This document shows positions 12,806 to 62,850 of a DNA stretch of 64,000 nucleotides, piece after piece. Position 1 is the first letter of the stretch, and the number at the start of each line of letters is the position of its first letter. A model generated the notes under the pieces. It had not been told where the DNA came from and searched no databases. It saw only the letters and a list, made by a program, of their open reading frames with translations. Position numbers and translations under genes: made by a program. The stretch comes from a virus: positions 1 to 64,000 of the IMG/VR virus record IMGVR_UViG_3300042876_000250, one strand, 5' to 3'.

Positions 12806-13170
12806 TGGAAGAGGCGAAACCTGTTGAGACGGCCAAAGAAGTCGCTGGCAAGTCCATCGGCAGGTTTGGCCTCTTCTACATCACGCTGATTGTCCTGATC
12901 GGCGTGGGATCGTCGTACTTTCTGTCTGAAGCGGCTATCACGGCCGTGATGACAATGGTGGGTGGTGCGTTGGTGGCCCTCATCAACATGATGAACGGGA
13001 TTGCTGGCACGGCCGAGAAGCAGGAAAAGCCTGAGTTCAAAGTCATTGAGACCTTGATCCAGAAGCTCGACAAACTCGACAGGCAGGAGCTGCCGATGCG
13101 CGTGGATGTTGAGGGTGAGAAGGTCACGGTGCGCAAAGGCGACGACGTTGTAATGGCGAAGAGGGATTGA
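12805..13170 (+). CDS. Small membrane protein with two transmembrane segments, 121 aa
   Basis: The protein starts MEEAKPVETAKEVAGKS and has two hydrophobic stretches near residues 28-47 (FGLFYITLIVLIGVGSSYFL) and 50-72 (AITAVMTMVGGALVALINMM). A charged C-terminal half follows (KLDKLDRQELPMRVDVEGEK). A holin or inner-membrane pore role is possible, but the endolysin lies 9 kb away next to a better holin. Start alternatives are GTG 12802 and ATG 12805. Confidence 0.65.
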   Translation: MEEAKPVETAKEVAGKSIGRFGLFYITLIVLIGVGSSYFLSEAAITAVMTMVGGALVALINMMNGIAGTAEKQEKPEFKVIETLIQKLDKLDRQELPMRVDVEGEKVTVRKGDDVVMAKRD

Positions 13171-13171
13171 T

Positions 13172-13873: not shown

Positions 13874-13876
13874 GAC

Positions 13877-14575
13877 ATGGCAACTTCCGGCGTAGCCAAT
13901 TTCAACCTCGATCTGGCGGAGATCGTTGAGGAGGCGTTCGAGCGCTGCGGTGCCGAACTGCGCACCGGCTACGACCTGCGCACGGCTCGGCGTTCTCTGA
14001 ACCTGCTGTTTGCCGACTGGGCCAACCGTGGCATCAACATGTGGACGTTCGAGCAGGGCACGCAGGCTCTTACGCCCGGCACGGCCACGTACAACCTCCC
14101 CGCCGACACAGTGGATTTGATGGAGCACGTCATCCGCACGGGGGCGGGCAACCAGTCCACGCAGGCAGACCTGACCATCACCAGGATCAGCGTCTCCACC
14201 TACGCGACCATCCCCAACAAGTTGCAGCAAGGGCGGCCCATCCAGATTTGGATTGAACGACTCGACACACCGCGTTTCACTGTGTGGCCCGTCCCCGATA
14301 ACTCGCAGACCTACCAGCTTGTCTACTGGCGTTTGAGGAGAATCCAAAATGCGGGCGATGGTACGAACACTATGGACATGCCGTTCCGGTTTATCCCGTG
14401 CATGGTGGCGGGACTGGCGTATTACCTGTCGATGAAGCTGCCCGAAGGCCTGGAGCGTATGCAGGTGCTCAAGGCGCAGTATGACGAGGCCTGGGCGCTG
14501 GCGGCCGAGGAAGACCGCGAGAAGGCTGCTGTGCGGTTTGTCCCGCGTCGTCAGTACCTGGGAAGCGGCACGTAA
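13877..14575 (+). CDS. Head-to-tail adaptor, P22 gp4-like (probable)
   Basis: A 232-residue protein. The N-terminal helical phrases LDLAEIVEEAFERCGAEL and RTARRSLNLLFADWANRG are typical of short-tailed-phage adaptor proteins that ring the base of the portal. The middle is beta (TYNLPADTVDLMEHV), and the C-terminus returns to helix (LPEGLERMQVLKAQYDEA). It would extend the DNA channel and allow the tail hub to bind. The start follows TAAGACATGG and is tightly spaced after the previous gene. Confidence 0.8.
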   Translation: MATSGVANFNLDLAEIVEEAFERCGAELRTGYDLRTARRSLNLLFADWANRGINMWTFEQGTQALTPGTATYNLPADTVDLMEHVIRTGAGNQSTQADLTITRISVSTYATIPNKLQQGRPIQIWIERLDTPRFTVWPVPDNSQTYQLVYWRLRRIQNAGDGTNTMDMPFRFIPCMVAGLAYYLSMKLPEGLERMQVLKAQYDEAWALAAEEDREKAAVRFVPRRQYLGSGT

Positions 14576-31079: not shown

Positions 31080-31083
31080 CAAA

Positions 31084-34000
31084 ATGGAACTCAGTCAAGT
31101 CCTTCAAGCACTCCGTAACGCAGACGCCGCAGGCGACAAGGAGGCAGCAAGAAGGCTGGCTGAGATTGCCAGGGAAATGGCGGGCGTTGAGCCCCCGGCA
31201 CCGGAGAAGAAAAGCTCCGGTGTTCTGGCATCTGCGGCCAAGGGCATCGAGGCCCTCATTTCTTCTGGCCGTACAGCAGCAGGCGCGATCACCGGGGACG
31301 CCAACGAAGCTGCCCGCGCCGCACTTGAGCGCAGCGCCAGCATGGAGCGCCGCTATGCGGACGATGTAAGTCTTGAAAAGGTTAAGCAGGCTTACGAGCA
31401 GCGAGGTCTGCTGCCTGCGGCGGGCGAGGCCATCAGCCAGATTCCAAAAGCTCTGGCTGAACAGGCACCCAACATTGCGGCCACCCTTGGCAGCGCCCGT
31501 CTTGGCGCGATGGCAGGCGCTCCGTTCGGCCCTGTTGGTGCGATTGTTGGGGGTACCGCAGGCGCGGTTGCGCCCGGTTTGGCTCAGATGTTCGGCTCCA
31601 ACGTTGAGCGCCAAGCTGCTGAACAGCAACGTGCCGGGCAGCCCATCAACGTCGATGTGGGCGCAGCAGGAGCTGCCGCAGTCCCGCAAGCCGCGCTTGA
31701 CGCCGCCGCCACTTTCATCCCCCTTGGCGGACGCATCGTCAGCAAAGTTACCGGCATCTCCCTGGAGTCACTTGGCACGCGCACTGCTGCTGAGACCGCC
31801 AAGCTGGCAGAAGAACGGCTGTTGGCGGTGCTGGCCAAGGGCGGGGCAAAAGGTATTGCCGCCGAGGTGCCGACGGAAGTTGCCCAGCAAATGCTGGAGC
31901 GCGCGCAGGCAGGGCTGTCGCTGACATCGCCCGAAGCCCTTCAAGAGTACGGCGAGACCGCATATCAAGTGTCGCTGCTTGCACCGTTGGGCGCAGCCGG
32001 TCGTATCTCCGAACGTAGTGGCGCTCGCCAAGAAGTTGCCAAGCAGCAAGACGCAGAGCGCAAAGCCGCGCAGCAAGCACGCATTCAACAAGAGCGCGTT
32101 GCCAAAGAGCAGCAAGCCCAGGCAGCCGCAGCCGAAGAAGCGCGTCGGCAAACGCCCGGGTACGCGCTGGAAGTGCAAGCCAAATATCAAGCGCTTGAGG
32201 GTCGGGCCGCAGAGCTGCGTGGGCAACTCCGCGAAGTGAAGAAGGACTCTCCCACGGCTACGGCAGACGCGGAGTTCAACAAAGACATCAAGGCCCAGCT
32301 CAAACAGCTTGGCAAAGAGTTGAGTGAAACCGCGAAAGAATACAACCGCGTTCGGCCTGTCCTGACATCCATGACTGCGCAGCAAGCGCAGGCCCAGGCA
32401 GCGCAGCAAGCCGCTGCGGAGGAGTATCAGAAGCGGCAGCAACAAGCCTACGCTGACCAAGAGCAGCAGTACCAACTGCAAGCCATGCGGCAGCAGATGG
32501 AGCAAACGCCGGGCTACCAGCAGCAGATTCCTGGCCTTGCCCCCATGGAGACCGAGGGCGCGCCGCAAACAACGACGCCGATGCCTGACACGGCGGCGCA
32601 GGCGCGGGAGTTTGCAGCCAAGCAGCAAGAGATGGCGCAGCTCTTGGAGAATGCCCAGGAGCAAGAGTCCGAAGCCGCAGGTCGCGGTGACATCGACTCG
32701 CTCAAAGCCCTGCGCCAGCGCAGGCAGATGCTCCAGAACGAGTACGAGTACGTCTCCAAACAACTCGCTGCACTGGGTGGTGTCCCGGCAAACGACGCCG
32801 AGAGTCTTCAAAACAAGATTGCTTCGCTGCAAGAAAAGCTCAAGGCGATGGCAGGGCCCGGCTACGACCCGGCCAAGGCTGACAAGATCATCGACCAGAT
32901 CGACTCCTTGCAGAAGCAACTCAAAGAGCTGGGGCTTCCTGAGAGAGCAGGCGTGCAGCAGCGCCTTGACTACGGCCCGGCCAACCAGACGCAGAAGATT
33001 GCCACCTGGGAAGAAGCCGGACGCCAAGAGCTTGGCCGCCGCGACGAAGACCTCAAGCGCCAGACTGGCCAGCAGGACGGTTTTGACTTTGGTGAGTTTG
33101 ACGAGCAGACCCGCGAACTGGATAAGCAGCGCAGGGAAGGCTTTACTGCCGCAGAAATTGCGGCGATGGAACGCGCTCGGTTGGACACCTCGCGTACTGC
33201 ACAAGGCACCCTGTTTGGTGAAGAGGCGAAAGAAGGGATCGAGACCGGGATCGGAAGCCAGAAGTCCCGTCAACAACTGGTCAACGATCTGCGTCTTGCC
33301 CGCGCTGCGCGCAACGCCCAGCCGGATCGCCGTGCCGGGGGCACCCAAGCCGTCAGCCAAGCACTGGAGGCACTGCGCGACTATGACGCCCGCGTTGCGG
33401 CTGAACAAGAGCGTGGCACCTCCAAGCTGGGAGAGATTGACGAAGACACCCAGAAGGCGCTGGCCGGAGCGGCCGTGCCCGAACGCGAGAAGGCGGTGCA
33501 GTCTGCGCGTGAACTGCGCGACGGTGCATATGCAGACATCGTTGACATGGTGTCCCGCTCCGACCGGGGCCGTTCGTTTACGAATCAGATTGCCGCTGCG
33601 CAGCAAAAGCTCGTGGACTTCTCGATCAAGGAAGCCGAGTTCCGTCGCGGTGAGGCTCTGACCGCTGAAGAGAAGCAACAGCTAACCGCCAAGATTTACG
33701 AGACTGTCCGTGAGCTACGTGGCCGCATGGGCGACACCCGCAACATCGTCAACGTTGGCACCAAAGATGAGCCGCGTTACGTTGACGCTGCATACACCAC
33801 GGAGGGCGGTGCTGGCACTGGCCCAACTGGCATGGGGCTGGCCAACATTGAGAGTCGCGCTCCTGGCCAGCGTACGTTTGCCAACACGTTTGCCGCAATC
33901 AAGTCGCTGCAAGAAGGTCTGGATCGCGCCATCAGTGGTTCGGCCAAACGTCGCACCGGATCGGTAGAGACCACCATCACCCCCGAGAAGACATCCGCGC

Positions 34001-37000
34001 AAATGCTGGCGCGGGAGTTGGAGAAGGCTTCGCGCAACCCAGATGTGCCTGCCGAAGCCCGGGATTTGATCGACCAGATCGCAGACAACGCCAAGCTGAT
34101 CGCCACGCGGCAAGAGCTGCTGGATGACGCCACGCGATTCGTGTACCGTGCAAATAACGGGGACTTCGACGCACTCTTGGCCCGTGATGTGCGGGAGGGC
34201 ATGGCAGGATTCGAGCAAGGCAAGCGCTCGGAGACTGAGGCTGAAACTGAGATGGCTCCGGCCGGGCGGGTGCAGCCTAAAGGTACGGCCGCGCCTGTCA
34301 CCACCTACGCGCAGCGAGCCACGGGTGTTACGCGAATTGCCGAGCAGCGTGACATGTTCCCTGACGTGCAACTGCAAGGACTTGTGTTTGGTACGTCGCC
34401 GGAGTTTCAGCGGTTCATGGGCAGCGACGCCCTGGACACGATGCGCCGCCTCAAGGGTATTCCTGGCGAGACCGCCGCTCGCACGCTCAACCGCCTCAAA
34501 CCGCTGGAAGCGCAGATCAACCGTTACGAGCAGCAGATGGCTGCGCTGCGGCAGCAGTACGAGAAGGCCAAAGCGCAAAGCGCTGAGGCAGCGGCGCTGG
34601 CTCCCGAAGCCCAAGAAGCCCTGCGTAAAGCCGTCGCCCTGCGCACGCAGATGGGCGTCAAGATCGAGCAAAGGCTCGCCGCTGTCGAGGCCGACTACAT
34701 CCGCGCCAGCCTGAAGTACAACTTCACCAGCAGCGTCATTGACGATCTGACCTCCATGATCTCAAAGAACGTGGAGAAGTTCAGCAGCCCCTTGGACGGT
34801 CTGGCAAAGCGGTACTTGAAAGAGATTGCAGACGCTGAACAACCTGCGGCCAAATTGCGCGCCGAGGTGATGGACAGGATTCGTACGGCCATCATCATGA
34901 TGCGTGACTCGCAGTACACGCCTGAACAGTTTGTTGCGGCTGCACAAAAAGGCACGCGCCCCGCCACTGCGTACAAAGCGCTGGCAGGAATGCCCAAGCA
35001 AATGCAGTACACGCCGAAACAAATTGGCCACCTGCTTGGGTTGTCGGACGCTGCTGTAGACAAACTGAAAGCGTACGCGGAAGAGGCTGCGCTCAAGAAA
35101 GACATCTATGTGCAGCGCCAAGCTGCTTGGATGTCGGATGCCCGCGTTATTGCTGCGCTGGACGAGCACCTGAAGCTGACGATGCAGCTTCGGGAAGAAG
35201 AGCGGCAGATCAACAAGCTCGGCAAAGAGTTGATGAATGCGTCACTGGCTGTGCGAGAAGCGCGCAGCATGCTGGAAGACGACCCCCGGGTCAAAGCGCG
35301 TTACGCCCGCCAAGAAGAACTGGCCGCAAAAGCACTGGCCGATCTTGAGGCCGCACGGGAAATCCTGGGCGAGACCGATGCAACTGTTCGCGCTATCTCC
35401 GCGCAGATCAACGCACTGGCCGACAAACAGGACAAACTCAAGCGCGTTGTCAGTGGCACCCAGAAACAGGTGGCTGCCAAGGCGGCCGAACGTGTTGTGC
35501 CCGAGGGCGTTACCGCCGAGACGCAAGGGGATCGTGAAGCCAAAGATGCCGAAGCCCGCAAGGCGGAGCAGGAAGCGCTTGAGCGCCGAGCCGACGACGT
35601 AAATCGCAAGCTGGTGTCGTTTGAGCCGAAGCGTCAGCAGGAACAAAAGCGCATCCGCAACGCGAAGGAAATTCTGGATTTGCAGGAGCAAGCTGCCACG
35701 GCTGCCGATCCGCAAGAACGTACCGCCGCGCAGAAGCAGCTTACGGCTTTCATGGACGAGTTGTACAAAACGTCTATGGGCGCGGCCAAGAAGCTGCAAG
35801 GTAGCATCAATGCGCAGGCAAAGCTGATTAAGCAAATTCAGAAAAGCGATGCCGCACTGGAAGACCCCAAGCTGGGCAAGAAAGCGCGTGCAGAAGAGCA
35901 GGCCAACAACGCCGCGCTGCGTGAAAAACTGAAAGCGCTGAGTGCCAAGATCAACAAGCAGCTTGGTTCTGTGCAGGAAGACATTCCGACCCGCGCCGAC
36001 ATCAAAGCCGAGCGCGAGGAGCAGTATCAGCGCGAGACCGCTGAAAAGTTGCAGTCGCTTGAAGAAGAGGGCAAGACCGAACGCCTGCCCGCCCGGCAAG
36101 TAGGCCCTGTTGTGAAGAAGACGGTGCAGGCTGGCACCGTGCGTACCGGCGAGCTTTCAACTACCGAAGAACGCAAAGTCGGCATGCGCAACACGCCGAC
36201 GCAAGCTGGTGCCCCGCGCAGCTTGACTGGTAAACAAGCGCAGGTTGCCGCTGCCAAAGATGTTGAAGTTGAGCAGTTGCTGCTGCGCGAATCCAACCTG
36301 TCCGATTTGAAGGAACGTGTTGAGGCTGCACTGGAGAAAGCGCAGGAGTCTGGCAACGAGGCGCAAATTGCAGGACGCCAAGACCAGCTTTCCCGCGTGG
36401 AAAAAGAACTTGCCAAGACCCAGCGCAAGCTGGAGAGCCTGGGCAAAACGCCAAAGCCACGCAAGCAAAAGACTATTGCCGCCGTCGAAGACCTCTACAA
36501 CGAGCTTGGCGACGCCAAATTCCAGCTTGCAGCAACGGCCACGCAAGGCCCCAAGGTTGCCGTGGAGCCGGAGTCGAACGCCGCCAATGTGATGGACGAG
36601 ATCACGGCCACCAGTACCAACCCGCTTAACCGCGCTGTGGCTGAGCGGCTGCGCACGCTGCTGGGCAACACCAAGATCAAACTGGTGCGGGACTTGCGCG
36701 ACGACAAAGGCAACCCGGTATACGGCAGCGCCAAGGTGGACGGCTCCGAGATTTCTCTGGACTTGCAGTACGGCACCAATGAACAGACAGTGCTGCACGA
36801 GGGTGTGCACGCGGCGATTGAGCGCGCTTTGCGCCTGCCCGAAGACAAGCTCACCGACGACCAGCGCGCGGCCAAGCGCGAACTGGAGGAGTTGTTCAAG
36901 GCGTACAAGGCTGACAAGACAGCGCCCAACGCAAACGCCAAGCAAGACATCAGCGAGTTTGTCGCCGAGGCGCTGTCAGACGCCGAACTGCAAAGCTACT

Positions 37001-39738
37001 TGGCGTCCAAGAAGTGGACGCTCAAGAACATGTGGAACGCCGTGAAGAATGGCATCTTGCGCATGATCGGCGTCGAGGTGCCCACCAACATGCGCGACGC
37101 CACCCTGGCCGCAGCAGACCGCCTGATGATGCGCGTGATGCGCCCGACGGCGGCCGACCAAAACCTTTTGGTGCCGTCACTCAACCGCCCTCGGTTGAAC
37201 GAGTCTCTGCGCAGCAGCATCGAGGTGGCCGACAAGCTCATTGCCAAGGAGCGGCCGTGGGCAGACCGCGTGCTGGCCGAGAACTCTGGCCTGTCTTTCG
37301 CCACGCGCTACGTTGACCGCTTCGCCGGGTTCGAGCGGCTGGCCAAGCAAATGGGCGACCTCGAAGGCACCCAGATGCTGTACTACCTGCGCATGTACGA
37401 CCAGCGCATGAACTTCGTGGCGCAGTCGGCAGGTAACGGGGCACTGGCCCTGGTCAAGAAAGAGCGCCGCGACGGCAGCTTCGAGTACCTGATTGAGAGC
37501 CAGGAAGGCGCAAGCCTGCGAACGGTAGTGGAGACCTTGAAAGAGGCGACCCCCATGGTTGGCGATGTCGATGCTGTAAACCGCCTGTTTACGACGTATC
37601 TGGCTGCCGAGCGTGCACGCCGCGTGGGGTTCGACAAGCTGAACTTTGGTGGCAGCGTTACGGAAGCAGAACTCAGGAACGCCGTGGCCGAGATCAACAG
37701 CGTCGAGGGGCTGAAGGATGTGTTTGACCGCGCCCGCCGCGAGTACAACGACTACAACGAAGGCCTCGTTCGCTTCGCCCAACAGACAGGCGCGCTGAGT
37801 AAAGAACTTGCGGACAAACTTCTTGCCAGCAAAGACTACATCCCGTACTACCGCCAGACCAAAGATGGCGGCGTGGATTTGGTGATTGGTGGTGAAGCGC
37901 CCATCCGCATCGGCAGCATCAAGGAGCAGCCATACCTGCAAGAGCTTGTTGGCGGCGACGAGCCGATCTTTGACTTCTTCAAGGCCTCGGTGCAGAACAC
38001 CAACCTCATGGTGGATATGGCGCTGCGCAATCTCTCCACCAAAAACGCCATGATCGAACTGGCCGAACTTGGTGGCGCGACCATCACCAAGTCGCAGATC
38101 ATCGGCAACGACGTTGTGAAGTTCAAGGTGGATGGCGAAGACCGCTACGCTCGCGTAGACACCGACATGTTTGGCGTGCCCGCCGAAGTTCTGGTCAAGG
38201 GCATGGAAGGCATCCCCATGCAGCTTACGGGCGTCATGCGGATTGCGTCGATGCCTGCTATGCTGTTGCGCAGGGCCGTGACGCTCTCGCCGCTTTACGT
38301 TGCTCGCCAGTTGTTCCGCGACTCGTTGGCTGCTCCTATCCTGTCCGGCGCAGATTTCACCCCCGTGCTTGGCGCGCTGCGGGAGATCAACCGCCCCAGC
38401 GGCAAAACTCTTGAGCAACGCGGCATCACTGGCGGCCAGTACTTCACCGGCACGCAAGAAGACCTGTCTCGCATCATGCGAGAGATCGCAGACGGCAAAC
38501 CCGGATGGGCCAAAGCGCTGGGCAAGCTGGAGTCTTTCGGCATGCAGGCTGACGCCCTGACCCGCCGCGCGCAGTACAACAGCTACATCAAACAGGGCCT
38601 GTCGGAGATGGAGGCCACGCTGCTCTCGCTGGAGTCTATGAACTTCAACAAGCGCGGTGCTTCTCCCAGCATCCACATGGCCAACTCGCTGATCCCGTTC
38701 TTCAACGCCCAGATTCAGGGCTTGAATGTGTTGTACCGGGCGCTTACGGGTAAAGCCACGCAGGCTGAGAAAGTGCGGTTGCAGTCCAAGCTGCTCACCC
38801 GTGGCGCTCTGCTGTTTGCCGTTTCTCTGGCCTACGCCGCGTCGATGCAGGACGACGAGGCCTACAAGAACGCCATGCCCGATCAGAAGTACGGCAACTG
38901 GTTCATTCGGATTCCCGGTGTTGATGAGCCGGTCAAGTTGCCCGTCCCGTTCGAGGTCGGCTACATCTTCAAGGCGCTGCCCGAGGCGCTGTACAACATG
39001 GCAGTCAACGGCGAGCGCGGCAAAGAGGAAGCAGGCGATGCGTTCATGGGCATCCTGCGCAACGTAATCCCAGGCGGTTCGTCGTTCCTCATTCCGCAGA
39101 TCGCCAAGCCCGCCATCGAGGCGGGGCTGGGCAAGTCGTTCTACACCGGCCGAGACATTCTGTCCGCACGGGAGGCCAAGCTGCGCCCCGAGGAGCAGTT
39201 CCGCGACAGCACCAGCGAGATCGCCAAGTCTCTTGGGGCAGCTTTCGGCATCTCGCCCATCAAGATTGAAGAACTCATCAAGGGCTATACGGGTACGCTG
39301 GGGTTGGCGGTTCTGCAAATGGGCAACCTGGGTTTTGATACCTCGGAGTCTCCGGCCAAGGCAATGAAGCGCTTGTCCGACATGCCTGTGGTGGGTGGTG
39401 CATTCCAGCCCAACGACGCTGGCTACATCATCAACAGCACCTACGACAAGCTCAAGGATGCGGAGGCGGTGAAGAACTCCGTTGACAGCCTGATTCAGCG
39501 CGGTGAAAAAGCCAAAGCCATGGCGCTGATTCAGGAGAAGGCCAACGAGTACGCGCAGAGCGGGTTGAGCACTTGGTACGGAAACGCAATCTCGCAACTG
39601 ACCAAGTACGAGACCGCCATCAAAGCGTCCGACATGAGCCCCGAAGAAAAGCGCAGGCGGCTTGATGAAGCGCGGCAGATGAAGATCAGGTTGGCTACGT
39701 CCGTGCGGGAGGCGGCAGATAGAACCACACCCCAATGA
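31084..39738 (+). CDS. Giant polyvalent internal virion protein with HExxH metallopeptidase, 2884 aa
   Basis: The start ATG lies 4 bp after the previous stop. Layout: the N-terminal helical motif LQALRNADAAGDKEAARRL; a Gly/Ala hydrophobic region at about 130-185; long coiled coils (about 320-720 and 1100-1850) rich in Gln, Lys and Glu; a zincin motif HEGVH at 1905-1909 within EQTVLHEGVHAAIERA, matching metallopeptidase domains of polyvalent proteins; and a C-terminal domain with FNKRGASPSIHMANSLIP and FFNAQIQGLNVLYRAL (LPD38-like). It is probably ejected into the host with the DNA. Substrate unknown. Confidence 0.85.
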   Translation: MELSQVLQALRNADAAGDKEAARRLAEIAREMAGVEPPAPEKKSSGVLASAAKGIEALISSGRTAAGAITGDANEAARAALERSASMERRYADDVSLEKVKQAYEQRGLLPAAGEAISQIPKALAEQAPNIAATLGSARLGAMAGAPFGPVGAIVGGTAGAVAPGLAQMFGSNVERQAAEQQRAGQPINVDVGAAGAAAVPQAALDAAATFIPLGGRIVSKVTGISLESLGTRTAAETAKLAEERLLAVLAKGGAKGIAAEVPTEVAQQMLERAQAGLSLTSPEALQEYGETAYQVSLLAPLGAAGRISERSGARQEVAKQQDAERKAAQQARIQQERVAKEQQAQAAAAEEARRQTPGYALEVQAKYQALEGRAAELRGQLREVKKDSPTATADAEFNKDIKAQLKQLGKELSETAKEYNRVRPVLTSMTAQQAQAQAAQQAAAEEYQKRQQQAYADQEQQYQLQAMRQQMEQTPGYQQQIPGLAPMETEGAPQTTTPMPDTAAQAREFAAKQQEMAQLLENAQEQESEAAGRGDIDSLKALRQRRQMLQNEYEYVSKQLAALGGVPANDAESLQNKIASLQEKLKAMAGPGYDPAKADKIIDQIDSLQKQLKELGLPERAGVQQRLDYGPANQTQKIATWEEAGRQELGRRDEDLKRQTGQQDGFDFGEFDEQTRELDKQRREGFTAAEIAAMERARLDTSRTAQGTLFGEEAKEGIETGIGSQKSRQQLVNDLRLARAARNAQPDRRAGGTQAVSQALEALRDYDARVAAEQERGTSKLGEIDEDTQKALAGAAVPEREKAVQSARELRDGAYADIVDMVSRSDRGRSFTNQIAAAQQKLVDFSIKEAEFRRGEALTAEEKQQLTAKIYETVRELRGRMGDTRNIVNVGTKDEPRYVDAAYTTEGGAGTGPTGMGLANIESRAPGQRTFANTFAAIKSLQEGLDRAISGSAKRRTGSVETTITPEKTSAQMLARELEKASRNPDVPAEARDLIDQIADNAKLIATRQELLDDATRFVYRANNGDFDALLARDVREGMAGFEQGKRSETEAETEMAPAGRVQPKGTAAPVTTYAQRATGVTRIAEQRDMFPDVQLQGLVFGTSPEFQRFMGSDALDTMRRLKGIPGETAARTLNRLKPLEAQINRYEQQMAALRQQYEKAKAQSAEAAALAPEAQEALRKAVALRTQMGVKIEQRLAAVEADYIRASLKYNFTSSVIDDLTSMISKNVEKFSSPLDGLAKRYLKEIADAEQPAAKLRAEVMDRIRTAIIMMRDSQYTPEQFVAAAQKGTRPATAYKALAGMPKQMQYTPKQIGHLLGLSDAAVDKLKAYAEEAALKKDIYVQRQAAWMSDARVIAALDEHLKLTMQLREEERQINKLGKELMNASLAVREARSMLEDDPRVKARYARQEELAAKALADLEAAREILGETDATVRAISAQINALADKQDKLKRVVSGTQKQVAAKAAERVVPEGVTAETQGDREAKDAEARKAEQEALERRADDVNRKLVSFEPKRQQEQKRIRNAKEILDLQEQAATAADPQERTAAQKQLTAFMDELYKTSMGAAKKLQGSINAQAKLIKQIQKSDAALEDPKLGKKARAEEQANNAALREKLKALSAKINKQLGSVQEDIPTRADIKAEREEQYQRETAEKLQSLEEEGKTERLPARQVGPVVKKTVQAGTVRTGELSTTEERKVGMRNTPTQAGAPRSLTGKQAQVAAAKDVEVEQLLLRESNLSDLKERVEAALEKAQESGNEAQIAGRQDQLSRVEKELAKTQRKLESLGKTPKPRKQKTIAAVEDLYNELGDAKFQLAATATQGPKVAVEPESNAANVMDEITATSTNPLNRAVAERLRTLLGNTKIKLVRDLRDDKGNPVYGSAKVDGSEISLDLQYGTNEQTVLHEGVHAAIERALRLPEDKLTDDQRAAKRELEELFKAYKADKTAPNANAKQDISEFVAEALSDAELQSYLASKKWTLKNMWNAVKNGILRMIGVEVPTNMRDATLAAADRLMMRVMRPTAADQNLLVPSLNRPRLNESLRSSIEVADKLIAKERPWADRVLAENSGLSFATRYVDRFAGFERLAKQMGDLEGTQMLYYLRMYDQRMNFVAQSAGNGALALVKKERRDGSFEYLIESQEGASLRTVVETLKEATPMVGDVDAVNRLFTTYLAAERARRVGFDKLNFGGSVTEAELRNAVAEINSVEGLKDVFDRARREYNDYNEGLVRFAQQTGALSKELADKLLASKDYIPYYRQTKDGGVDLVIGGEAPIRIGSIKEQPYLQELVGGDEPIFDFFKASVQNTNLMVDMALRNLSTKNAMIELAELGGATITKSQIIGNDVVKFKVDGEDRYARVDTDMFGVPAEVLVKGMEGIPMQLTGVMRIASMPAMLLRRAVTLSPLYVARQLFRDSLAAPILSGADFTPVLGALREINRPSGKTLEQRGITGGQYFTGTQEDLSRIMREIADGKPGWAKALGKLESFGMQADALTRRAQYNSYIKQGLSEMEATLLSLESMNFNKRGASPSIHMANSLIPFFNAQIQGLNVLYRALTGKATQAEKVRLQSKLLTRGALLFAVSLAYAASMQDDEAYKNAMPDQKYGNWFIRIPGVDEPVKLPVPFEVGYIFKALPEALYNMAVNGERGKEEAGDAFMGILRNVIPGGSSFLIPQIAKPAIEAGLGKSFYTGRDILSAREAKLRPEEQFRDSTSEIAKSLGAAFGISPIKIEELIKGYTGTLGLAVLQMGNLGFDTSESPAKAMKRLSDMPVVGGAFQPNDAGYIINSTYDKLKDAEAVKNSVDSLIQRGEKAKAMALIQEKANEYAQSGLSTWYGNAISQLTKYETAIKASDMSPEEKRRRLDEARQMKIRLATSVREAADRTTPQ

Positions 39739-56194: not shown

Positions 56195-57085
56195 TCAAAA
56201 AGAAAATTTGTCGAGGATGGCATCGACGTTCTTCTTCACATCCTGGCGCACCGCCTCGTTCTTGCGAAGCTCGGCAGGGGTCACGCCACACAGCAGTTGC
56301 TCCAGGCTAGAGCGCACGCTCTCCAGTTGCTGGTCGCCAACCACATTCAATGCGCGAGTCAGGTCGCACAGCTCCAGCGCACCATCGACAAGGGAGTCGT
56401 GGAAGCGCCGCGTCTTGGCCTCGCCCGCTACGTAGTCGGTGGTCAGGCGGTCAGACATACGCTTGAGGTGTTCGCCCAGGCGCTTGCGCACGTCAGCCAT
56501 AGCGGCCTCCACCCGCTCGTCAGCAAGACGTTGCAGCTTGCTCTGAATGTCCTGCATCGCAGCGTTGCCCACGTCAACGCGGAAGTCGCCAGCCGTAGGC
56601 ACAGGCATGTAGTTCACGCGGAAAGCGAACTTGGTCATGATCTCGTTCTGCGTGGGGTAGTCGTCCCTGCGGAACATGCCGCCCAGCGCCATGGCCTGCG
56701 CCGTAATCAGCGTGGGATAGATGGCCACGAAGTCGTGCACCAGCCGCTCGAACTCCTCCTCGAAGGCGTTCATCTTGGCCGCGAAGTTCTCGAAGTTGAG
56801 CACCGGCAGCAGGCGCAGGCCAGAGTCAGACCAGGGCAGCGTGTTGTCGTACACGTATTGCCGAGCGCGGCCGACCATCTGCTGGATAACCTCCAGCTCG
56901 TTGCGGCCAGCAAGCAGGTGCTTGTTGACCCGCGCCGCGTCTTTGGCCGCAGCGTTCTTGGAGGTGACGACCTCCTCGGTCGCGCTCTTGTCGAGCTTGC
57001 GCGCAGTCCAGACCGATGCGTTGAACTCGGCCAGCATGGCGCAGGTGTCGATGTTGTAGCGAGGGGTGTTGATTGCTTGGTTCAT
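56195..57085 (-). CDS. MoxR/VWA-associated protein (DUF3150-like, tentative), 296 aa
   Basis: Starts MNQAINTPRYNIDTCAM after AAAGGAGAACCACC. All-helical: LAEFNASVWTARKLDKSA, LEVIQQMVGRARQYVYDN, FEEEFERLVHDFVAIYP, VEAAMADVRKRLGEHLKRM. The pattern of a short N-terminal W-x-A-R-K-x-D motif and a long helical bundle recalls DUF3150, which is often encoded beside MoxR ATPases, as here. It probably works with the VWA protein and ATPase at 57329-59701. Confidence 0.65.
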   Translation of the reverse strand: MNQAINTPRYNIDTCAMLAEFNASVWTARKLDKSATEEVVTSKNAAAKDAARVNKHLLAGRNELEVIQQMVGRARQYVYDNTLPWSDSGLRLLPVLNFENFAAKMNAFEEEFERLVHDFVAIYPTLITAQAMALGGMFRRDDYPTQNEIMTKFAFRVNYMPVPTAGDFRVDVGNAAMQDIQSKLQRLADERVEAAMADVRKRLGEHLKRMSDRLTTDYVAGEAKTRRFHDSLVDGALELCDLTRALNVVGDQQLESVRSSLEQLLCGVTPAELRKNEAVRQDVKKNVDAILDKFSF

Positions 57086-57097
57086 GGTGGTTCTCCT

Positions 57098-57316
57098 TTA
57101 GTAAATGTCAGACACGCTGTTGAGATGATTCTTGAGCGCGCGCAGCGCCACGCGCTCAAGCGTCGAGACGTGAAACCCGAGTATCCGGGCACCTACCTCG
57201 TTGGTGTTATTCGCTATGTACGCCGCCACAATCTTCTCGATGTCCAGCCTAATCTTCTCGGCAAGCTCAGGGTTGCAGTCCCCGAGCGACAGCAGCGATG
57301 CGGTCTCGTCGTGCAT
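57098..57316 (-). CDS. Small protein in MoxR/VWA cluster, 72 aa
   Basis: MHDETASLLSLGDCNPE, RLDIEKIVAAYIANNTNE and GFHVSTLERVALRALKNHL, a short helical protein after TAAGGAGAACCAACC. It lies between the VWA gene and the 296-residue helical protein, 12 bp from each, so it is part of the same unit. Unknown. Confidence 0.65.
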   Translation of the reverse strand: MHDETASLLSLGDCNPELAEKIRLDIEKIVAAYIANNTNEVGARILGFHVSTLERVALRALKNHLNSVSDIY

Positions 57317-57328
57317 GGTTGGTTCTCC

Positions 57329-58528
57329 TTACTCTTTGATGTGCATGACCTTGCCGCGCAGCGGGACGAACGAGTCGTTCTCCACTACGCCCCAGAGGAC
57401 AGGAACGTCCGGCAAGCTGTACTGAGGTTCGATGTAGCCATCGGTCAGCATGATGACTGCCATGGGCTTGTACTCCTTCTCGGCAATGTACTGGGCAACG
57501 CACGAGACCGTGGTGCCGCCACCGCCAACAGGCTTGAGAAGCTCGGGCATGCGCTCGTAGTCCTCGGGCAGGAACTCCTGATCGCCGCCGACCTTGGTGT
57601 CCCACCACAGCACGCGCACCTTCTCGGGCTTGACGTGCTGGCACACACGCGAGACCTCACCGAAGATGATGGGGTAGTACGGGTGCATGGAGCCTGACGT
57701 GTCAGTGGCAATGATGATCTCGCCGATGGTCTCGTCGAAGTGCGAGGGCATGATGAAGCCGCTGGCAAGCAGGCGCTTGTTGGGCGGGCAGAAGCGCGAG
57801 TTCTCGTCGCCCTTGCACACGGTGGTGATGAAGTCGATGAGCGCCTCGCGCCAGTTGGTCTGGCGCTCTTGCATGGTGCCGAGCAGGTCACGGCCACCGC
57901 TACCCTCGCCGCGCATCTTGCGCACGAGCAGCTCACCCTGGCGGTTGGCATCGTCCACGATCTTCTCGATGGCGTCGCGCTCCTCCTGGCTCATGCCATC
58001 GGACATCTGGTGGTCGTCCATCGGGCCGGGCTTACCGTCGCCACCCTGGCCGTCACCTTCGCCGCCCTGGCCCTCGTCGAGCAGGGTCTTGAGCACCTGG
58101 GGGAAAGACATGCCCTTGAAGCGCACGTCAACGAGGGGCTCGACCTTGGTCGGACGCTCAACGAATTGCAGGTTGGGATCAAGCTCCTCGATCATGCCGT
58201 TGACCACGTAGTCCATGGCCATGTTGCACACTCGGCCGCCGAAGCGCTTGACGTAGGCGTGGTACTCGGCCAGCACGCAGTGCTTGAGCGCGATGTGGAA
58301 GTTCTCGTGCAGCACGAGGTAGCGCAGTTGCTTGCGCGTCATGCCGCTGATGAACTCCTCGCCATAGTACTTGTCGAGACCGTTGGTGCAGGCCGTGGGG
58401 ATGTCGGCTTTGACCTCAGACTTACCGGCGCAGATGTGGCCGGAGAGAAGCGCGAAGTTGCGGTCGCGCATGCAGTCGATGTTGACTGCCTGAATCTTCT
58501 GGGTAGGTGTCAGTTTGTCGAAGGACAT
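57329..58528 (-). CDS. VWA-domain protein with HExxH metallopeptidase-like N-terminus, 399 aa
   Basis: Residues 60-90 contain TRKQLRYLVLHENFHIAL with HENFH at 74-78, the DUF2201-type zincin motif. A Gly/Asp-rich flexible linker lies near 153-170. The C-terminal VWA-like domain has ATDTSGSM, giving the metal-site D276-x-S278-x-S280, and later VIMLTDGYIEPQY. Pairing with a MoxR ATPase encoded directly upstream is the classic MoxR-VWA arrangement (compare RavA-ViaA and CbbQ-CbbO), in which the VWA partner delivers substrates for remodelling. Ribosome site AAGGAGAACC. Confidence 0.85.
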   Translation of the reverse strand: MSFDKLTPTQKIQAVNIDCMRDRNFALLSGHICAGKSEVKADIPTACTNGLDKYYGEEFISGMTRKQLRYLVLHENFHIALKHCVLAEYHAYVKRFGGRVCNMAMDYVVNGMIEELDPNLQFVERPTKVEPLVDVRFKGMSFPQVLKTLLDEGQGGEGDGQGGDGKPGPMDDHQMSDGMSQEERDAIEKIVDDANRQGELLVRKMRGEGSGGRDLLGTMQERQTNWREALIDFITTVCKGDENSRFCPPNKRLLASGFIMPSHFDETIGEIIIATDTSGSMHPYYPIIFGEVSRVCQHVKPEKVRVLWWDTKVGGDQEFLPEDYERMPELLKPVGGGGTTVSCVAQYIAEKEYKPMAVIMLTDGYIEPQYSLPDVPVLWGVVENDSFVPLRGKVMHIKE

Positions 58529-58570
58529 GATTGGTTCTCCTTGGGTTGATGGGGCCGAAGCCCCGAGTGA

Positions 58571-59701
58571 TTACTTGGTGGTGAAGAAAATCTTGTGCTC
58601 GGCCAGCATCTTGCCGAAGTTGGCAAGCGTGACGTACATGCCCACGCGCTGCGACTGAGCGACAGAGTTGCAGAAGATGGACTGCATCTCAGCGCGCATG
58701 CGGTGCACGTAGGTCACGATCTTCTCGGCGTCCTCGCGGTTGTCACAGCGAGAGACGAACTGCATCACCTGCACAAGCTGCGCCGTGGGGTTGTTCGAGA
58801 TCGGTGCAGTCTCCGGCTCCTTGAGCACACGGGCGTACTCGCAAATCTCCTTGCCGAAGCGAATGAACGATGCAAGGTTCTGCGCAGCCACAGAGCCGAT
58901 GGTGCCAGACAGCGCAACCTCCAGCGTGTCATCGTCGAGCACACCGAGACCCTCGTGCAGGATGTCAGAGGCAGCAACGAGCGAGCGCATGGTCACGTAG
59001 GCCATAGCGGTGGAGCGAGGGTTGAAGATCATGGCGTTGTCCTTGGCCATGTCCTTGCCCGCATGCTTGCCGCCCTTCTCGTAGTCGAGGAAGGAGTCGA
59101 ACACCACGTCATAGTTCTTGGCAAAGGCCACGACCATCTCGTGCACACCGTTGTCCAGCGCCCAGGTGATCCACTCCTGAGCCGTAGGCTTGCGCATACG
59201 CACGAACACCAGACGGTTGCGCAGGTGAGCCTGGATGCTATCGCCAAGACCCTCGACGGCGAGGTTGGTAGCGCAGAACACAACCGAACCCTCGGGCATG
59301 TGGTAGTTACCGACGCGGTGCTCGTAGATGATCGGGGCCAGCACGTTCTTGATGAACTGCGGAGCCTTGGCCACCTCGTCGAGGAAGCACACGATCGGGC
59401 GGCTGCCGTTGATGCCCTTCTGGTTGGTGCGGCTGACACCGAAGCGCTCGTTGGGAAGCTCACGCGAGACACCGTTCTCACGGTCGAGATCAGGCATCCA
59501 CACCGAGCCATCGGACAGTTGCGTGCAGTCGATGGGGTCAACAGCGATGTGGTTGGCGAACTTGGGATGCGCCTTGAGGGCGTGGAACAGCGCGGTCTTA
59601 CCGATGCCGTTCTCGCCCTCGACGATCACGGTGCGCTTGTGACCGACAGCAGCGATGAGGTTGAGGGTCTGGGTGAAGGAGAGCATTTTGATTGCGGACA
59701 T
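58571..59701 (-). CDS. MoxR-family AAA+ ATPase, 376 aa
   Basis: The start is the ATG after CAAGGAACCAATC; the longer frame would translate the palindromic leader. Walker A GENGIGKT is at residues 29-36, Walker B CFLDEVAKA at about 105-113, and sensor 1 FCATN at 142-146, followed by HLRNRLVFVRMRKP, which carries the Arg-finger region. The C-terminal part is a helical lid. It is probably a hexameric chaperone ATPase acting with the VWA protein. A promoter-like pair and palindrome copy 3 lie just upstream, marking it as the first gene of its operon. Confidence 0.85.
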   Translation of the reverse strand: MSAIKMLSFTQTLNLIAAVGHKRTVIVEGENGIGKTALFHALKAHPKFANHIAVDPIDCTQLSDGSVWMPDLDRENGVSRELPNERFGVSRTNQKGINGSRPIVCFLDEVAKAPQFIKNVLAPIIYEHRVGNYHMPEGSVVFCATNLAVEGLGDSIQAHLRNRLVFVRMRKPTAQEWITWALDNGVHEMVVAFAKNYDVVFDSFLDYEKGGKHAGKDMAKDNAMIFNPRSTAMAYVTMRSLVAASDILHEGLGVLDDDTLEVALSGTIGSVAAQNLASFIRFGKEICEYARVLKEPETAPISNNPTAQLVQVMQFVSRCDNREDAEKIVTYVHRMRAEMQSIFCNSVAQSQRVGMYVTLANFGKMLAEHKIFFTTK

Positions 59702-59748
59702 GATTGGTTCCTTGAGGTTAGGTTGGTTGGGTTGGTTGAGGAATCGAA

Positions 59749-59771
59749 CTCGCTGACACCGTGTCAGCGAG
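59749..59771. repeat. Palindromic repeat copy 3, longest arms (10 bp), in the MoxR leader
   Basis: CTCGCTGACA-CCG-TGTCAGCGAG, perfect 10-bp arms around 3 nt. It lies between the candidate promoter at 59785-59812 and the MoxR start, so it could be an operator at the transcription start or a hairpin in the leader RNA. Confidence 0.75.
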
Positions 59772-59784
59772 TGGTTGCAGAGAG

Positions 59785-59812
59785 TGTATCTGATCTGTCT
59801 AGTGTTTGACAA
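59785..59812 (-). promoter_or_regulatory. Candidate promoter for the MoxR/VWA operon
   Basis: On the minus strand TTGTCA (59807-59812; 5/6 to consensus) is followed after 16 bp by GATACA (59785-59790; weak). The following palindrome copy 3 would start about 15 bp downstream. The 126-bp gap is one of the larger spacers inside the early arm, which fits a separate promoter. Confidence 0.3.
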
Positions 59813-59827
59813 CTCCTTTCATTAGGG

Positions 59828-60805
59828 TTATTTGGGATAGCACGTCACATTGGAGAGCGTGATCTCGTCGGGCTGCGGGAACTGAGGGTAGGGCTTGGTG
59901 CTGTTGGGCTTGTTGAGACCGACCATCTCCACAATACGTTTCCACAAAGCTGCCTGGAACTCCTTGGCCGTGATGCGCTTGTCTGCGGGCAGCACTTCGT
60001 ACGGCGCGGTGTGTGATGAGTTGCCCCAGGTATGCAGGAGGTTGAGGTCGTAGGCCCGTGTCGATGCCAGCTTCTCGAAGACGCGCAGGCCCATATCGAA
60101 GAAGCGGGTGTACGCCTCGGTGGTGGCGGTGCCAAGGCCCATGTACTCCTTGTAGATAGCAACCACGGCGTTCTTGTGCACCCAGGTGATGTTCGAGTCA
60201 CCGAACGGCCCACCGACGTAGCCTTTGAGTTCAGCGTCGTGCTCGTACTCGGGCATACGCATGATAGCCAGCGACAGCAGCGGCTCGAACAGTTGCTTGG
60301 TGTGAGCACGTTTGGCCTTGTCGTCCTGGCCGCTGATGCGCTTGTAGATCGGCGTGTGCGATGACTTGGCCAGGAGCAGCCTGTCGTTTTGGAAGTACAG
60401 GTCGGTGCTGAAGTCACTGCCCGGCATCTTCACAGCGGCGATGGGCACAACCCTGGTGGTGCCATCGTCGGCCTTGACGTGGTTGAAAGCCTCCACGCCA
60501 AGCACGTCCCACATGAAGCCCTTGCTGGTGTTAGTGTGGTGGCCGCAGAACTGCGTGCGCAGCACGCCATCGTCGTCGGGCTTGTGAAAGCGGGCCATCA
60601 CCGTGGAGTACAGGCACAGGTCGTAGTACTCACCAGGGTTGCTGATGCTGGTCTCGATGCGGTAGTGCTGGAAACGCGCGCCGCGCAGCGGGCGCTGGTA
60701 GTCCTCCCACTTGGTGCTGCGGGGTTTGTTGGTGTTGCGGAAGTGCTTCTCGGCAGCGGCGTAGTTGGTGATGCGCGAAATCGAACTTGTTTGTCCTGCG
60801 AACAT
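59828..60805 (-). CDS. Conserved hypothetical protein, 325 aa
   Basis: Starts MFAGQTSSISRITNYAA after CAAGGAGAACCACC. A beta-rich first half (RGARFQHYRIETSISNPG; YYDLCLYSTVMARFHKPD; QFCGHHTNTSKGFMWDVL) and helical second half (KNAVVAIYKEYMGLG; RFFDMGLRVFEKLASTRAY). No nucleotide-binding or metal motif is convincing, although HHTN stands out. It immediately precedes the MoxR unit and could be its client or partner. I do not recognise it. Confidence 0.7.
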   Translation of the reverse strand: MFAGQTSSISRITNYAAAEKHFRNTNKPRSTKWEDYQRPLRGARFQHYRIETSISNPGEYYDLCLYSTVMARFHKPDDDGVLRTQFCGHHTNTSKGFMWDVLGVEAFNHVKADDGTTRVVPIAAVKMPGSDFSTDLYFQNDRLLLAKSSHTPIYKRISGQDDKAKRAHTKQLFEPLLSLAIMRMPEYEHDAELKGYVGGPFGDSNITWVHKNAVVAIYKEYMGLGTATTEAYTRFFDMGLRVFEKLASTRAYDLNLLHTWGNSSHTAPYEVLPADKRITAKEFQAALWKRIVEMVGLNKPNSTKPYPQFPQPDEITLSNVTCYPK

Positions 60806-60844: not shown

Positions 60845-61102
60845 TTAAATGCGGTGCTCGTCGGCTTGGCGTGCGAGCGTTGGGTTGAGCCTGTTGAGTG
60901 CTGCGACAACGACAGGCTTGTGCTTGCGAAGGCGCTGCACCACGTCCTTGTAGCGCGGCGCTGCATCGGCCAAGTACTTGCAGTTTGGCGGGGCGTCAGG
61001 GTGCGCTGCAATCTCCAGCACCTTGCGGCCCATGTCTTCCTTGAGCTTGACGAGCGCAAGCCAAGAGCGGTAAAGCTCTGTTGCTTTATCTTTGTTTGTC
61101 AT
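60845..61102 (-). CDS. Hypothetical early protein, 85 aa
   Basis: Starts MTNKDKATELYRSWLAL, overlapping the previous stop (ATGA). Helical: VKLKEDMGRKVLEIAAHP, RYKDVVQRLRKHKPVVVA, ending RLNPTLARQADEHRI. It contains one Cys (PPNCKYLA). Unknown function. Confidence 0.65.
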   Translation of the reverse strand: MTNKDKATELYRSWLALVKLKEDMGRKVLEIAAHPDAPPNCKYLADAAPRYKDVVQRLRKHKPVVVAALNRLNPTLARQADEHRI

Positions 61103-61794
61103 TGCAGTGTCCCTTCTTCGTCAAAGAGGTAGTTGTTGGCAAAGGCGACCTCGGCGAAGCAATCCGCGCTGGTCTCCCATTCGTACGCCTCCTCAAGCCT
61201 CGCGTAGATTTCATCGGCGTACTCTTTGGCTTTCTCCAGCACGAGTTCTTCAAGCTCACCGACGAGTAGCTCGGCGTCGATACCCTCGGCAAGGTCTTTC
61301 ACGTTGGCACCCTTGAGTGGGCATTCGTGTGTGATGAAGTCCGTGGGGGCCTCCACGTCGTAGTCGTTGCGCAGCAAAAAACTCAGCGCACTGTCGTCAA
61401 TGCTGTCCAGCGACATGCCACCCGAGTGCACATAGAACGTGCTTCGCAGCGAGACGTTGGTGTAGTGCTGCACCCAGCCCTCGTTGACGAGCATGGCGTA
61501 GACCTGCGCACGAGCGTGCAGCGGGTGCGTGTCGGGGATGCAGGCCTCGATGAACTTGGGTAGGTTCACACGCCCGATCCACGACGCGCCATCGCCTTGC
61601 GACCAGAAGCCCGACCAGCGCACGTCGTCGATGTCGAAGCCCTTGGCCTTGCCCTGCTCCTTGGCCTCTTCAATCACGTAGTGGGCCCAGTCGTTGTCGA
61701 GCACGCTGGCCCACCAATCCAGCGCTTTGGTCTTGGCCCTGTCGCTGAGCTGATCGAAGGTGTAGGTTTTGGTTGGTTCCATTGTGTCGGTCAT
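61099..61794 (-). CDS. Conserved phage protein with GFWSQGDGAS motif, 231 aa
   Basis: Starts MTDTMEPTKTYTFDQLS after AAAGGAGAGAGCAA. It contains FDQLSDRAKTKALDWWAS, DIDDVRWSGFWSQGDGAS, a mid-section around HYTNVSLRSTFYVHSGG and an acidic helical C-terminus (ELEELVLEKAKEYADEI; WETSADCFAEVAFANNY). The F-D-x-L-S-D-x-A-K and S-G-F-W-S-Q-G-D-G-A-S signatures recur in many phages; some database entries call it an antitoxin without evidence. Activity unknown. Confidence 0.8.
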   Translation of the reverse strand: MTDTMEPTKTYTFDQLSDRAKTKALDWWASVLDNDWAHYVIEEAKEQGKAKGFDIDDVRWSGFWSQGDGASWIGRVNLPKFIEACIPDTHPLHARAQVYAMLVNEGWVQHYTNVSLRSTFYVHSGGMSLDSIDDSALSFLLRNDYDVEAPTDFITHECPLKGANVKDLAEGIDAELLVGELEELVLEKAKEYADEIYARLEEAYEWETSADCFAEVAFANNYLFDEEGTLQ

Positions 61795-62069: not shown

Positions 62070-62297
62070 TCAGGGTCTCCAAAAAGTAACGTCAAAGAAA
62101 ACCACCGCGAGAGCGATGGCGCAGGAAAGGGCCAAGGCCCAGGACTCAGGACTTGCTGACAGGTTGTCAGCGAGTTGCCTTCTACGCGAGCGCAGTTTGA
62201 TGCGCTCGGCCGGGCCGGTGTAGCGGCGCGGAGAGAAGTGATGAGAGTAGCGCGAGAGCGCGTAAGGGTGAGGTGGTTTGTGTCTGGTCGGTTTCAT
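62070..62297 (-). CDS. Small membrane protein with basic N-terminus, 75 aa
   Basis: MKPTRHKPPHPYALSRY, a strongly basic cytoplasmic half (RIKLRSRRRQLADNLSAS), then one membrane segment (WALALSCAIALAVVFFDV) near the C-terminus. AAGAGGAGAACCAAG supports the start. Palindrome copy 4 lies in its coding sequence and encodes ADNLSAS. It may act at the inner membrane, for example in host takeover or lysis control; unknown. Confidence 0.55.
   Translation of the reverse strand: MKPTRHKPPHPYALSRYSHHFSPRRYTGPAERIKLRSRRRQLADNLSASPESWALALSCAIALAVVFFDVTFWRP
62155..62171. repeat. Palindromic repeat copy 4, inside a CDS
   Basis: GCTGACA-GGT-TGTCAGC flanked by CGAGTT, identical in its 17 bp to copy 1. It is embedded in the coding sequence at 62070-62297. 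Confidence 0.7.
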
Positions 62298-62833: not shown

Positions 62834-62850
62834 GCTGACAATGTGTCAGC
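62834..62850. repeat. Palindromic repeat copy 5
   Basis: GCTGACA-ATG-TGTCAGC flanked by CGAGTTTT, in the 79-bp gap between the genes at 62294-62812 and 62892-63683, 22 bp before the start of the former on the minus strand. Confidence 0.7.

Follow-up and report, generated by a model that had tools for sequence, protein, structure and literature searches.

Relatives of a phage MoxR-VWA-type gene set on Burkholderia-type plasmids and in a cyanophage point to a possible protein-remodelling machine

Introduction

A helix-2 insert is the defining feature of MoxR-type ATPases, and the known MoxR-VWA chaperones (RavA-ViaA, NorQ-NorD and CbbQ-CbbO) act on host enzymes. Like the phage locus described here, these systems combine an AAA+ ring ATPase with a MIDAS-bearing VWA partner. 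To our knowledge, however, their VWA partners do not carry the HExxH domain found in the phage protein, and we know of no DUF3150 subunit in any of them. A mechanistic precedent for remodelling comes from NorQ-NorD, a complex that twists its target and in which the VWA finger of NorD goes into the pore of NorQ (PMC13036017). Among viruses, p618/p892 of the archaeal virus ATV is by description likewise a viral MoxR ATPase with a VWA partner, but it belongs to another type of virus and p618 is a virion component (PMC4124505). The gp24 and gp25 genes are core genes of N4-like phages, reported with no function stated (PMC7650795, PMC4193335).

Here, we analysed a window of 64,000 nucleotides of viral DNA (positions 1 to 64,000 of IMG/VR record IMGVR_UViG_3300042876_000250), in which an earlier note had described a MoxR-VWA module with helical partners and had pointed to bacterial MoxR-VWA pairs, which remodel or activate large complexes.

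Results

Gene content and control region of the phage unit

The minus strand between 56195 and 60805 carries, in this order, the genes for a 325-residue protein (p325), an ATPase, a VWA protein, a 72-residue protein (p72) and a DUF3150-like protein, confirming the five-gene unit proposed in the earlier note gene by gene. The structural genes of the phage lie on the opposite strand.

A TTGTCA-N18-TACACT promoter (59783-59812, minus strand) precedes the ATPase/VWA unit. Although the promoter scan on its own performs at about chance level (2 found against 1.7 expected), the element is kept in relatives as GTTGTCAAACACTAGACA...TACACT. Downstream of the promoter lies a perfect palindrome (59748-59772, minus strand; ACTCGCTGACAC G GTGTCAGCGAGT), whose sequence varies between relatives while the pairing is preserved: covariation is seen in 8/11 pairs, double-changed cells number 21 compared to 7.3 in shuffles, and the RNA fold has a z of -3.55. 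On this pattern, the palindrome looks like a hairpin in the leader, downstream of the unit promoter. The proposed control of the unit by a promoter and a palindrome thus holds in that both elements are conserved, with the palindrome now re-read as a putative leader hairpin. The palindrome upstream of units with the VWA gene first was rejected as a further leader hairpin, being the promoter's own TTGTCAA..TTTGACAA dyad.

Conserved motifs of the ATPase and the VWA protein

The ATPase gene (58571-59701, minus strand; 376 aa) can be read as a longer open reading frame with a TTG start (58571-59812). Because this frame overlaps the promoter and the palindrome, and because M1 at the ATG at 59701 is invariant in orthologues, we take the ATG as the true start. 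The protein matches PHROG 1297 ('ATPase') with 135 bits, and the Walker A motif GENGIGKT (59617-59594, minus strand), the Walker B D-E, the sensor-1 TN and an arginine-finger-like LRNR are invariant in 22 orthologues. The assignment as an AAA+ ATPase is therefore sound as regards the Walker motifs, whereas the MoxR label is weaker by Pfam, where AAA_5 scores 17.8 bits, under the cut-off of 22. ICE homologues of the ATPase reach 66-82 bits with the same model. Sequence searches for solved relatives of the ATPase, the VWA protein and p325 gave no meaningful match.

The VWA protein (57329-58528, minus strand; 399 aa) consists of an N-terminal metallopeptidase-like DUF2201_N domain (40.5 bits, cut-off 23.2) followed by a C-terminal VWA-like DUF2201 domain (48.8 bits, cut-off 26.4), and on account of these domains we rejected the label 'HNH endonuclease' that PHROG 1314 gives to the family. 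Both sites that had been noticed in this protein, HENFH (residues 74-78; 58295-58309, minus strand) and the first MIDAS segment DTSGS (residues 276-280; 57689-57703, minus strand), were located, and H74, E75 and H78 as well as DTSGS are invariant in 31 orthologues, as are all parts of the MIDAS (DxSxS, T and D). DxSGS is retained in 14/14 distant homologues aligned. HExxH is found in all phage homologues tested and most plasmid ones, and the N-x-A/C-x-D motif downstream of it does not vary in the phage family and recurs in the majority of distant homologues, N4-like phages included.

Such conservation raises the possibility that the unit is an AAA+-fed metalloprotease, in which the HExxH domain would cleave a protein of the host or the phage handed over by the ring, as in single-chain FtsH; ICE/IncC-type VWA proteins carry HExxH too, together with a MIDAS-like DxSxS, in 6/6 examined. 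The same conservation is, however, expected from a structural metal site. Furthermore, HExxH and N-x-A-x-D are both gone from the VWA proteins of Paraburkholderia dioscoreae and P. sabiae plasmids, and the H-E of HExxH is gone from that of a Variovorax plasmid, yet the MIDAS is intact in all three and the ATPase and DUF3150 genes persist beside them. Cleavage is therefore probably not the core function of the unit, and we regard an obligate protease as unlikely. For the suggestion that the peptidase-like N-terminus makes cleavage possible, this means that the site is usually retained but has been lost in three MIDAS-intact plasmid homologues.

The DUF3150-like protein, p325 and p72

The product of the last gene (56195-57085, minus strand; 296 aa) matches Pfam PF11348 with 23.4 bits (E 4.2e-5), narrowly missing the cut-off of 24.9, while a relative exceeds it with 27.1 bits; hence the name DUF3150-like. 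Its profile link to members above the cut-off has a probability of 91% over 123 columns. A low-confidence structure model (pLDDT 53) predicts a mostly helical protein. Identity to the DUF3150-like protein is 72-86% in relatives, and our literature search found no paper naming DUF3150.

The p325 gene (59828-60805, minus strand; 325 aa, family unassigned) lies immediately upstream of the unit in relatives, in 45/45 related viral loci with enough flank, with an identity of 26-38%. Its AlphaFold2 model has a mean pLDDT of 94.3; nothing in the PDB matched it at E<=0.001, the best VIA-align Z being 4.6, and one weak viral structural match has a low TM-score, so that we make no claim of a new fold. 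As the upstream member of the unit, p325 is thus a constant neighbour, but its gene is placed upstream of the promoter that precedes the ATPase/VWA genes and it was not found outside this phage group, save for one distant contig. The genes upstream of the plasmid triad and of the Planktothrix phage ATPase described below were considered as counterparts of p325 and rejected, as neither shows similarity. The p72 gene (57098-57316, minus strand) had also been counted as part of the unit; a homologue is present in only about one tenth of loci (28-44% identity), which marks it as a clade-specific accessory rather than a general component.

Co-conservation in related viral loci

Of the loci found via the DUF3150-like protein, 45/45 with enough flank have the complete set of ATPase, VWA, DUF3150-like and p325 genes, and in loci found via the VWA protein DUF3150 is present in 46/46 and the ATPase in 45/45. 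The set is thus kept together in both search directions, as the earlier note had asked of other phage genomes, and is not a chance association. Two gene orders exist, with ATPase and VWA genes swapped (25 compared to 31 loci), and the VWA gene is contiguous with the ATPase gene in all loci tested. The rV5-type phages with an annotated 'MoxR ATPase' were rejected as carriers, there being no annotated VWA gene within 9 kb.

Related sets on plasmids, ICEs and other phages

Our main new result is that relatives of the phage set are present on Burkholderia-type plasmids and in a cyanophage. Plasmids of Paraburkholderia, Cupriavidus, Caballeronia, Variovorax, Robbsia, Burkholderia and Rhodovastum carry the same three genes as a contiguous triad, often adjoining type IV secretion genes, and their DUF3150 proteins are about 28-34% identical to the phage protein across most of its length. 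The triad differs from the phage unit in its order (ATPase-DUF3150-VWA), in having no p325 and in the missing HExxH of some members. In the cyanophage, Planktothrix phage Pag-Yong1, the ATPase, DUF3150 and VWA genes lie close together.

The same three domain types also occur in SXT/R391 and IncC elements, as ssb-bet-exo-ATPase-hp-DUF3150-hp-VWA-radC in R997 (SXT/R391-type) and as ATPase-hp-ssb-bet-exo-DUF3150-VWA in pVCR94 (IncC). These sets differ from the phage unit in their VWA proteins, which are CobT-like and about 545 residues or longer, in similarity at the profile level only and in a ssb-bet-exo recombination neighbourhood that the phage unit does not share. Family-to-family profile links between the phage/plasmid and ICE/IncC proteins are 91% for DUF3150, 91.7% for the ATPase and 50% for the VWA protein (negative control 0.1%), whereas single-sequence profile comparison with one ICE set gave nothing for DUF3150 or VWA and a weak link for the ATPase (24%). 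Matches of ICE-type homologues to the CbbQ_C and CobT models, together with the insertion of iron by the MoxR-VWA pair NorQ/NorD (PMC13036017), would fit an insertase for metal cofactors, resembling NorQD/CobST, with a metalloenzyme of the host or the element as its target. We consider such a role highly improbable for the phage unit, in which there is no CobN-size gene or metalloenzyme gene and whose VWA protein has no CobT family match in Pfam.

In N4-like phages (Schitoviridae), gp24 (AAA+ ATPase) and gp25 (vWFA/HExxH) are likewise adjacent and annotated as PHROG 1297/1314, with HExxH and MIDAS conserved in gp25, but share only about 25-29% identity with the phage proteins. No DUF3150-like or p325 gene was detected in the N4-like loci examined; these phages thus appear to use ATPase and VWA protein without DUF3150, so that a third subunit is not required everywhere. 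The 2893-aa giant protein of our phage matches only LPD38 in Pfam and nothing in PHROGs, and in neither database does it show the giant virion RNA polymerase that marks Schitoviridae; by this mark the phage is not N4-like.

A giant protein of this kind could be the client of a virion-assembly or genome-ejection chaperone, with the ring and VWA partner folding, assembling or unfolding it or another virion protein. ATV p618/p892, the best-studied viral MoxR-VWA pair, has been ascribed a part in tail development as a chaperone, with p618 in the virion and its ATPase boosted by the VWA protein p892 (PMC4124505), and N4-like phages, themselves equipped with a giant protein that is ejected, retain gp24/gp25 as core genes (PMC7650795, PMC4193335). 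However, N4 gp24/gp25 transcripts are middle rather than late, gp24/gp25 homologues are not listed in RPP1/RLP1 virion mass spectrometry, and the unit stands on the strand opposite to the structural genes. Related sets are, moreover, common on plasmids and ICEs, which have no virion; this disfavours a purely virion target and a phage-only purpose, and a virion chaperone appears improbable.

Discussion

The co-conserved unit of ATPase, HExxH/VWA protein and helical partner is best read as remodelling a complex in the MoxR-VWA manner, and we prefer a remodelling machine used during establishment of the element to an obligate protease or a chaperone for virions. The unit would encode a three-part, ATP-driven machine in which the AAA+ protein assembles as a ring, the VWA protein binds to this ring and grips the target via its MIDAS, and the DUF3150-like protein serves as third subunit, probably the target adaptor; p325, as a phage-specific neighbour, may have an accessory role or act on the substrate side. 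We infer that the machine would most likely act soon after entry into a new cell, on a complex handling or attacking the incoming DNA, and not on virions. Candidate targets are recombination or replication complexes of the element or host and host DNA-defence complexes. Two other targets suggested before, the respiratory chain and RNA polymerase, found nothing in their favour, and the known defence systems gave no convincing match in PADLOC and NCBIfam. As regards the MoxR-vWA ternary conflict systems, in which a third component of the VMAP, iSTAND or FtsH type comes with effectors, PADLOC returned no hit to p325, the VWA protein or the DUF3150-like protein.

In support of a remodelling machine we count the co-conservation in both directions, the survival of the unit through the swap of ATPase and VWA order, the invariant Walker A/B, sensor 1, LRNR, HExxH and MIDAS, the related sets on plasmids, in the cyanophage and in ICE/IncC elements with their profile links, the three plasmid proteins with MIDAS but no HExxH, and the NorQ-NorD precedent; against it we count the 50% VWA link to ICE/IncC elements, the weak single-sequence comparisons, the recombination genes that surround the ICE/IncC sets but not the phage unit, and the N4-like pairs that appear to do without DUF3150. 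On balance, we see the case as evenly poised that the unit is a version of a three-part machine present in several mobile elements and acts on complexes at incoming DNA in a new cell. More speculatively, and with considerable doubt, phages, conjugative plasmids and ICEs might share one AAA+/DUF3150/HExxH-VWA machine, of which N4 gp24/gp25 would be a minimal two-part version and which, as the element enters, would disarm or remodel the DNA-defence or DNA-repair complexes of the host.

DUF3150 matches occur on 1168 plasmid records, 978 of them typed conjugative, and IncC plasmids are among the carriers. Joining N4 gp24/gp25 and plasmid DUF3150 into one partner set makes the function testable in tractable phages and plasmids, and the phage and plasmid sets together suggest a common early-establishment machine.

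A conserved ATPase, VWA and DUF3150-like gene set

The viral record comprises 64,416 bases, of which the window covers nearly all. Plus-strand genes of the window encode a terminase large subunit, a portal and virion proteins, whereas those for a DNA polymerase, a primase/helicase-like protein and a helicase lie on the minus strand. At 31057-39738 is the gene for a giant protein of 2893 residues, probably a polyvalent virion protein, whose C-terminal part contains an LPD38 domain. No tRNA genes were found in the window and no virion RNA polymerase match among its proteins, and by the latter mark the phage is therefore not N4-like. Its DNA polymerase best matches those of Rhizobium and Pseudomonas phages in the phage collection (~30-32% identity).

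Gene calls bore out the coordinates of the five minus-strand genes that the earlier note had placed at 56195-60805, each preceded by a purine-rich ribosome site. Judging from the sequence, we place the start of the ATPase at ATG 59701, because the 5′ extension of the open reading frame spans the promoter and palindrome and this methionine is invariant in relatives. Invariant among relatives are also the ATPase Walker A motif GENGIGKT, Walker B D-E, TN (sensor 1) and LRNR. The VWA protein (57329-58528) combines a metallopeptidase-like N-terminal and a VWA-like C-terminal domain, each exceeding the Pfam cut-off, and its relatives without exception keep H74, E75, H78, the N102-A104-D106-N110 pattern, D276/S278/S280, T339 and D363. 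PHROGs and many records give the family of the VWA protein, PHROG 1314, the name 'HNH endonuclease', apparently in error. The DUF3150 match of the DUF3150-like protein (56195-57085) lies slightly under the Pfam cut-off.

Scanning with the DUF3150-like protein collected 128 viral stretches, 80 of which were retained; 45 of the loci extend more than 6.3 kb upstream of the DUF3150-like gene, and each of them carries the genes for p325 (the 325-residue protein, 59828-60805), ATPase, VWA and DUF3150-like protein. The reverse search from the VWA protein gave 108 relatives, with DUF3150 in 46/46 and the ATPase in 45/45 loci with enough flank, counts that are not independent events since the two sets have many contigs in common and include near-duplicates. 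Co-conservation of ATPase, VWA and DUF3150-like genes is thus seen from both search directions. Where all four genes are complete, the order is p325-ATPase-VWA-DUF3150 in 25 loci and p325-VWA-ATPase-DUF3150 in 31; the persistence of the set through this change of order speaks for linked function. Identity to the window proteins is about 60-80% for the ATPase, 55-71% for VWA, 72-86% for the DUF3150-like protein and 26-38% for p325. The 72-residue protein (57098-57316), which had been counted as part of the unit, is not a general component of it: only about one locus in ten has a recognisable homologue.

As p325 lies upstream of the unit's conserved promoter, this neighbouring gene is probably transcribed separately. 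Its protein structure, predicted with confidence (pLDDT 94.3), had no PDB match at E<=0.001. Outside the phage family p325 was found solely on one distant contig, which carries the same four genes and is assigned by binning to a Chthoniobacterales MAG. Further upstream, a 231-residue protein (PHROG 5162, 61099-61794) is conserved in about half of relatives.

Promoter and leader palindrome

The candidate promoter, TTGTCA-N18-TACACT (59812-59783), is conserved in many ATPase-first relatives as GTTGTCAAACACTAGACA-N-TACACT. Shortly 3′ of it lies a perfect palindrome (59748-59772). At the equivalent position relatives carry hairpins of different sequence with loops of 3-11 nt, and in 20 of 25 distinct leaders the stem was matched by at most 5% of shuffles. 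Across 12 aligned leaders, both sides had changed in 8 of 11 pairs, with 21 double-changed cells vs 7.3 (sd 2.1) in shuffles. This signal was lost when the partner strand was slid, a comparison somewhat biased toward the unslid version by taking the structure from the window's own palindrome. The leader RNA gave a folding z of -3.55. Variation in the loop speaks for a hairpin in RNA, whereas four exact copies of GCTGACA-N3-TGTCAGC, dispersed across the window (931-947, 59752-59768, 62155-62171 and 62834-62850; 0.01 expected), favour a candidate protein-binding site; the dispersed element may be either an operator or a hairpin family of the phage. A near copy lies at about 1264-1280. In VWA-first relatives a TTGTCAA..TTTGACAA dyad in the -35 region, with TGnTATAAT, stands in place of the leader palindrome. 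Both elements earlier proposed to control the unit, the promoter and the third palindrome copy, are present and conserved, the palindrome in its pairing and not in its sequence.

Two putative metal sites of unequal conservation

All 14 distant VWA homologues compared retain DxSGS of the MIDAS, and 11 retain HExxH, the three exceptions all being plasmid proteins. In two of these N-x-A-x-D has disappeared together with HExxH, and this joint loss suggests that both motifs form one metal site. Loss of HExxH while MIDAS is kept suggests in turn that the machine does not centre on this putative site.

Related sets in phages, plasmids and ICEs

Planktothrix phage Pag-Yong1 carries ATPase, DUF3150-like and VWA genes inside 4.5 kb; a gene annotated as anti-CRISPR AcrVA2 (13054-14094 of its locus, L082) lies shortly downstream of the VWA gene. 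ATPase and VWA genes also occur in Rhizobium phage TM27A and in two N4-like phages, IME11 and Presley, with DUF3150 not detected at these loci. The pair corresponds to core genes gp24 and gp25 of N4-like phages (PMC7650795, PMC4193335).

Burkholderiales and Rhodovastum plasmids encode a contiguous ATPase-DUF3150-VWA set, often directly 5′ of type IV secretion genes, whereas the window phage has the order p325-ATPase-VWA-DUF3150. In a Simplicispira plasmid small genes intervene between ATPase and DUF3150-VWA; the gene table of the Paraburkholderia acidisoli plasmid shows no ATPase where one would be expected, such plasmid tables being incomplete. A Candidatus Manganitrophus plasmid (L191:1-6792) has AAA ATPase, DUF1257, DUF2997 and DUF3150 genes, plus JAB and Fic genes, and no VWA gene listed near DUF3150; by gene content it is a different DUF3150 partner set.

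In R997 (SXT/R391 type) and the IncC plasmid pVCR94, the three domain types are located with ssb, bet and exo. RecT/YqaJ neighbours also occur at some bacterial PF11348 loci (9 of 398 genomes above cut-off). Plasmid records with a match to DUF3150 of this type number 1168, and 978 of these are classed as conjugative. Family-to-family profiles between phage/plasmid and ICE/IncC versions gave link probabilities of 91% for DUF3150, 91.7% for the ATPase and 50% for VWA, against 0.1% for a mismatched control. The putative VWA link draws mainly on the HExxH region and common layout; HExxH and DxSxS are present in 6/6 ICE/IncC-type VWA proteins.

A possible role in DNA establishment

We consider it likely that the unit is a protein-remodelling machine, for which NorQD (PMC13036017) serves as the model. 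By this analogy, the ATPase would form a hexameric ring, a finger of the VWA protein would enter its pore with the MIDAS on the target, and ATP cycles would twist the VWA protein. Third components of MoxR-vWA ternary systems act as adaptors (PMC7159879), and the DUF3150-like protein, predicted to be helical, may do likewise as the third subunit. Since the set is found in phages, conjugative plasmids and ICEs, in the latter near recombination genes, we infer that its task would be one met by any incoming DNA. If the unit does remodel proteins, its target more probably lies in DNA establishment than elsewhere.
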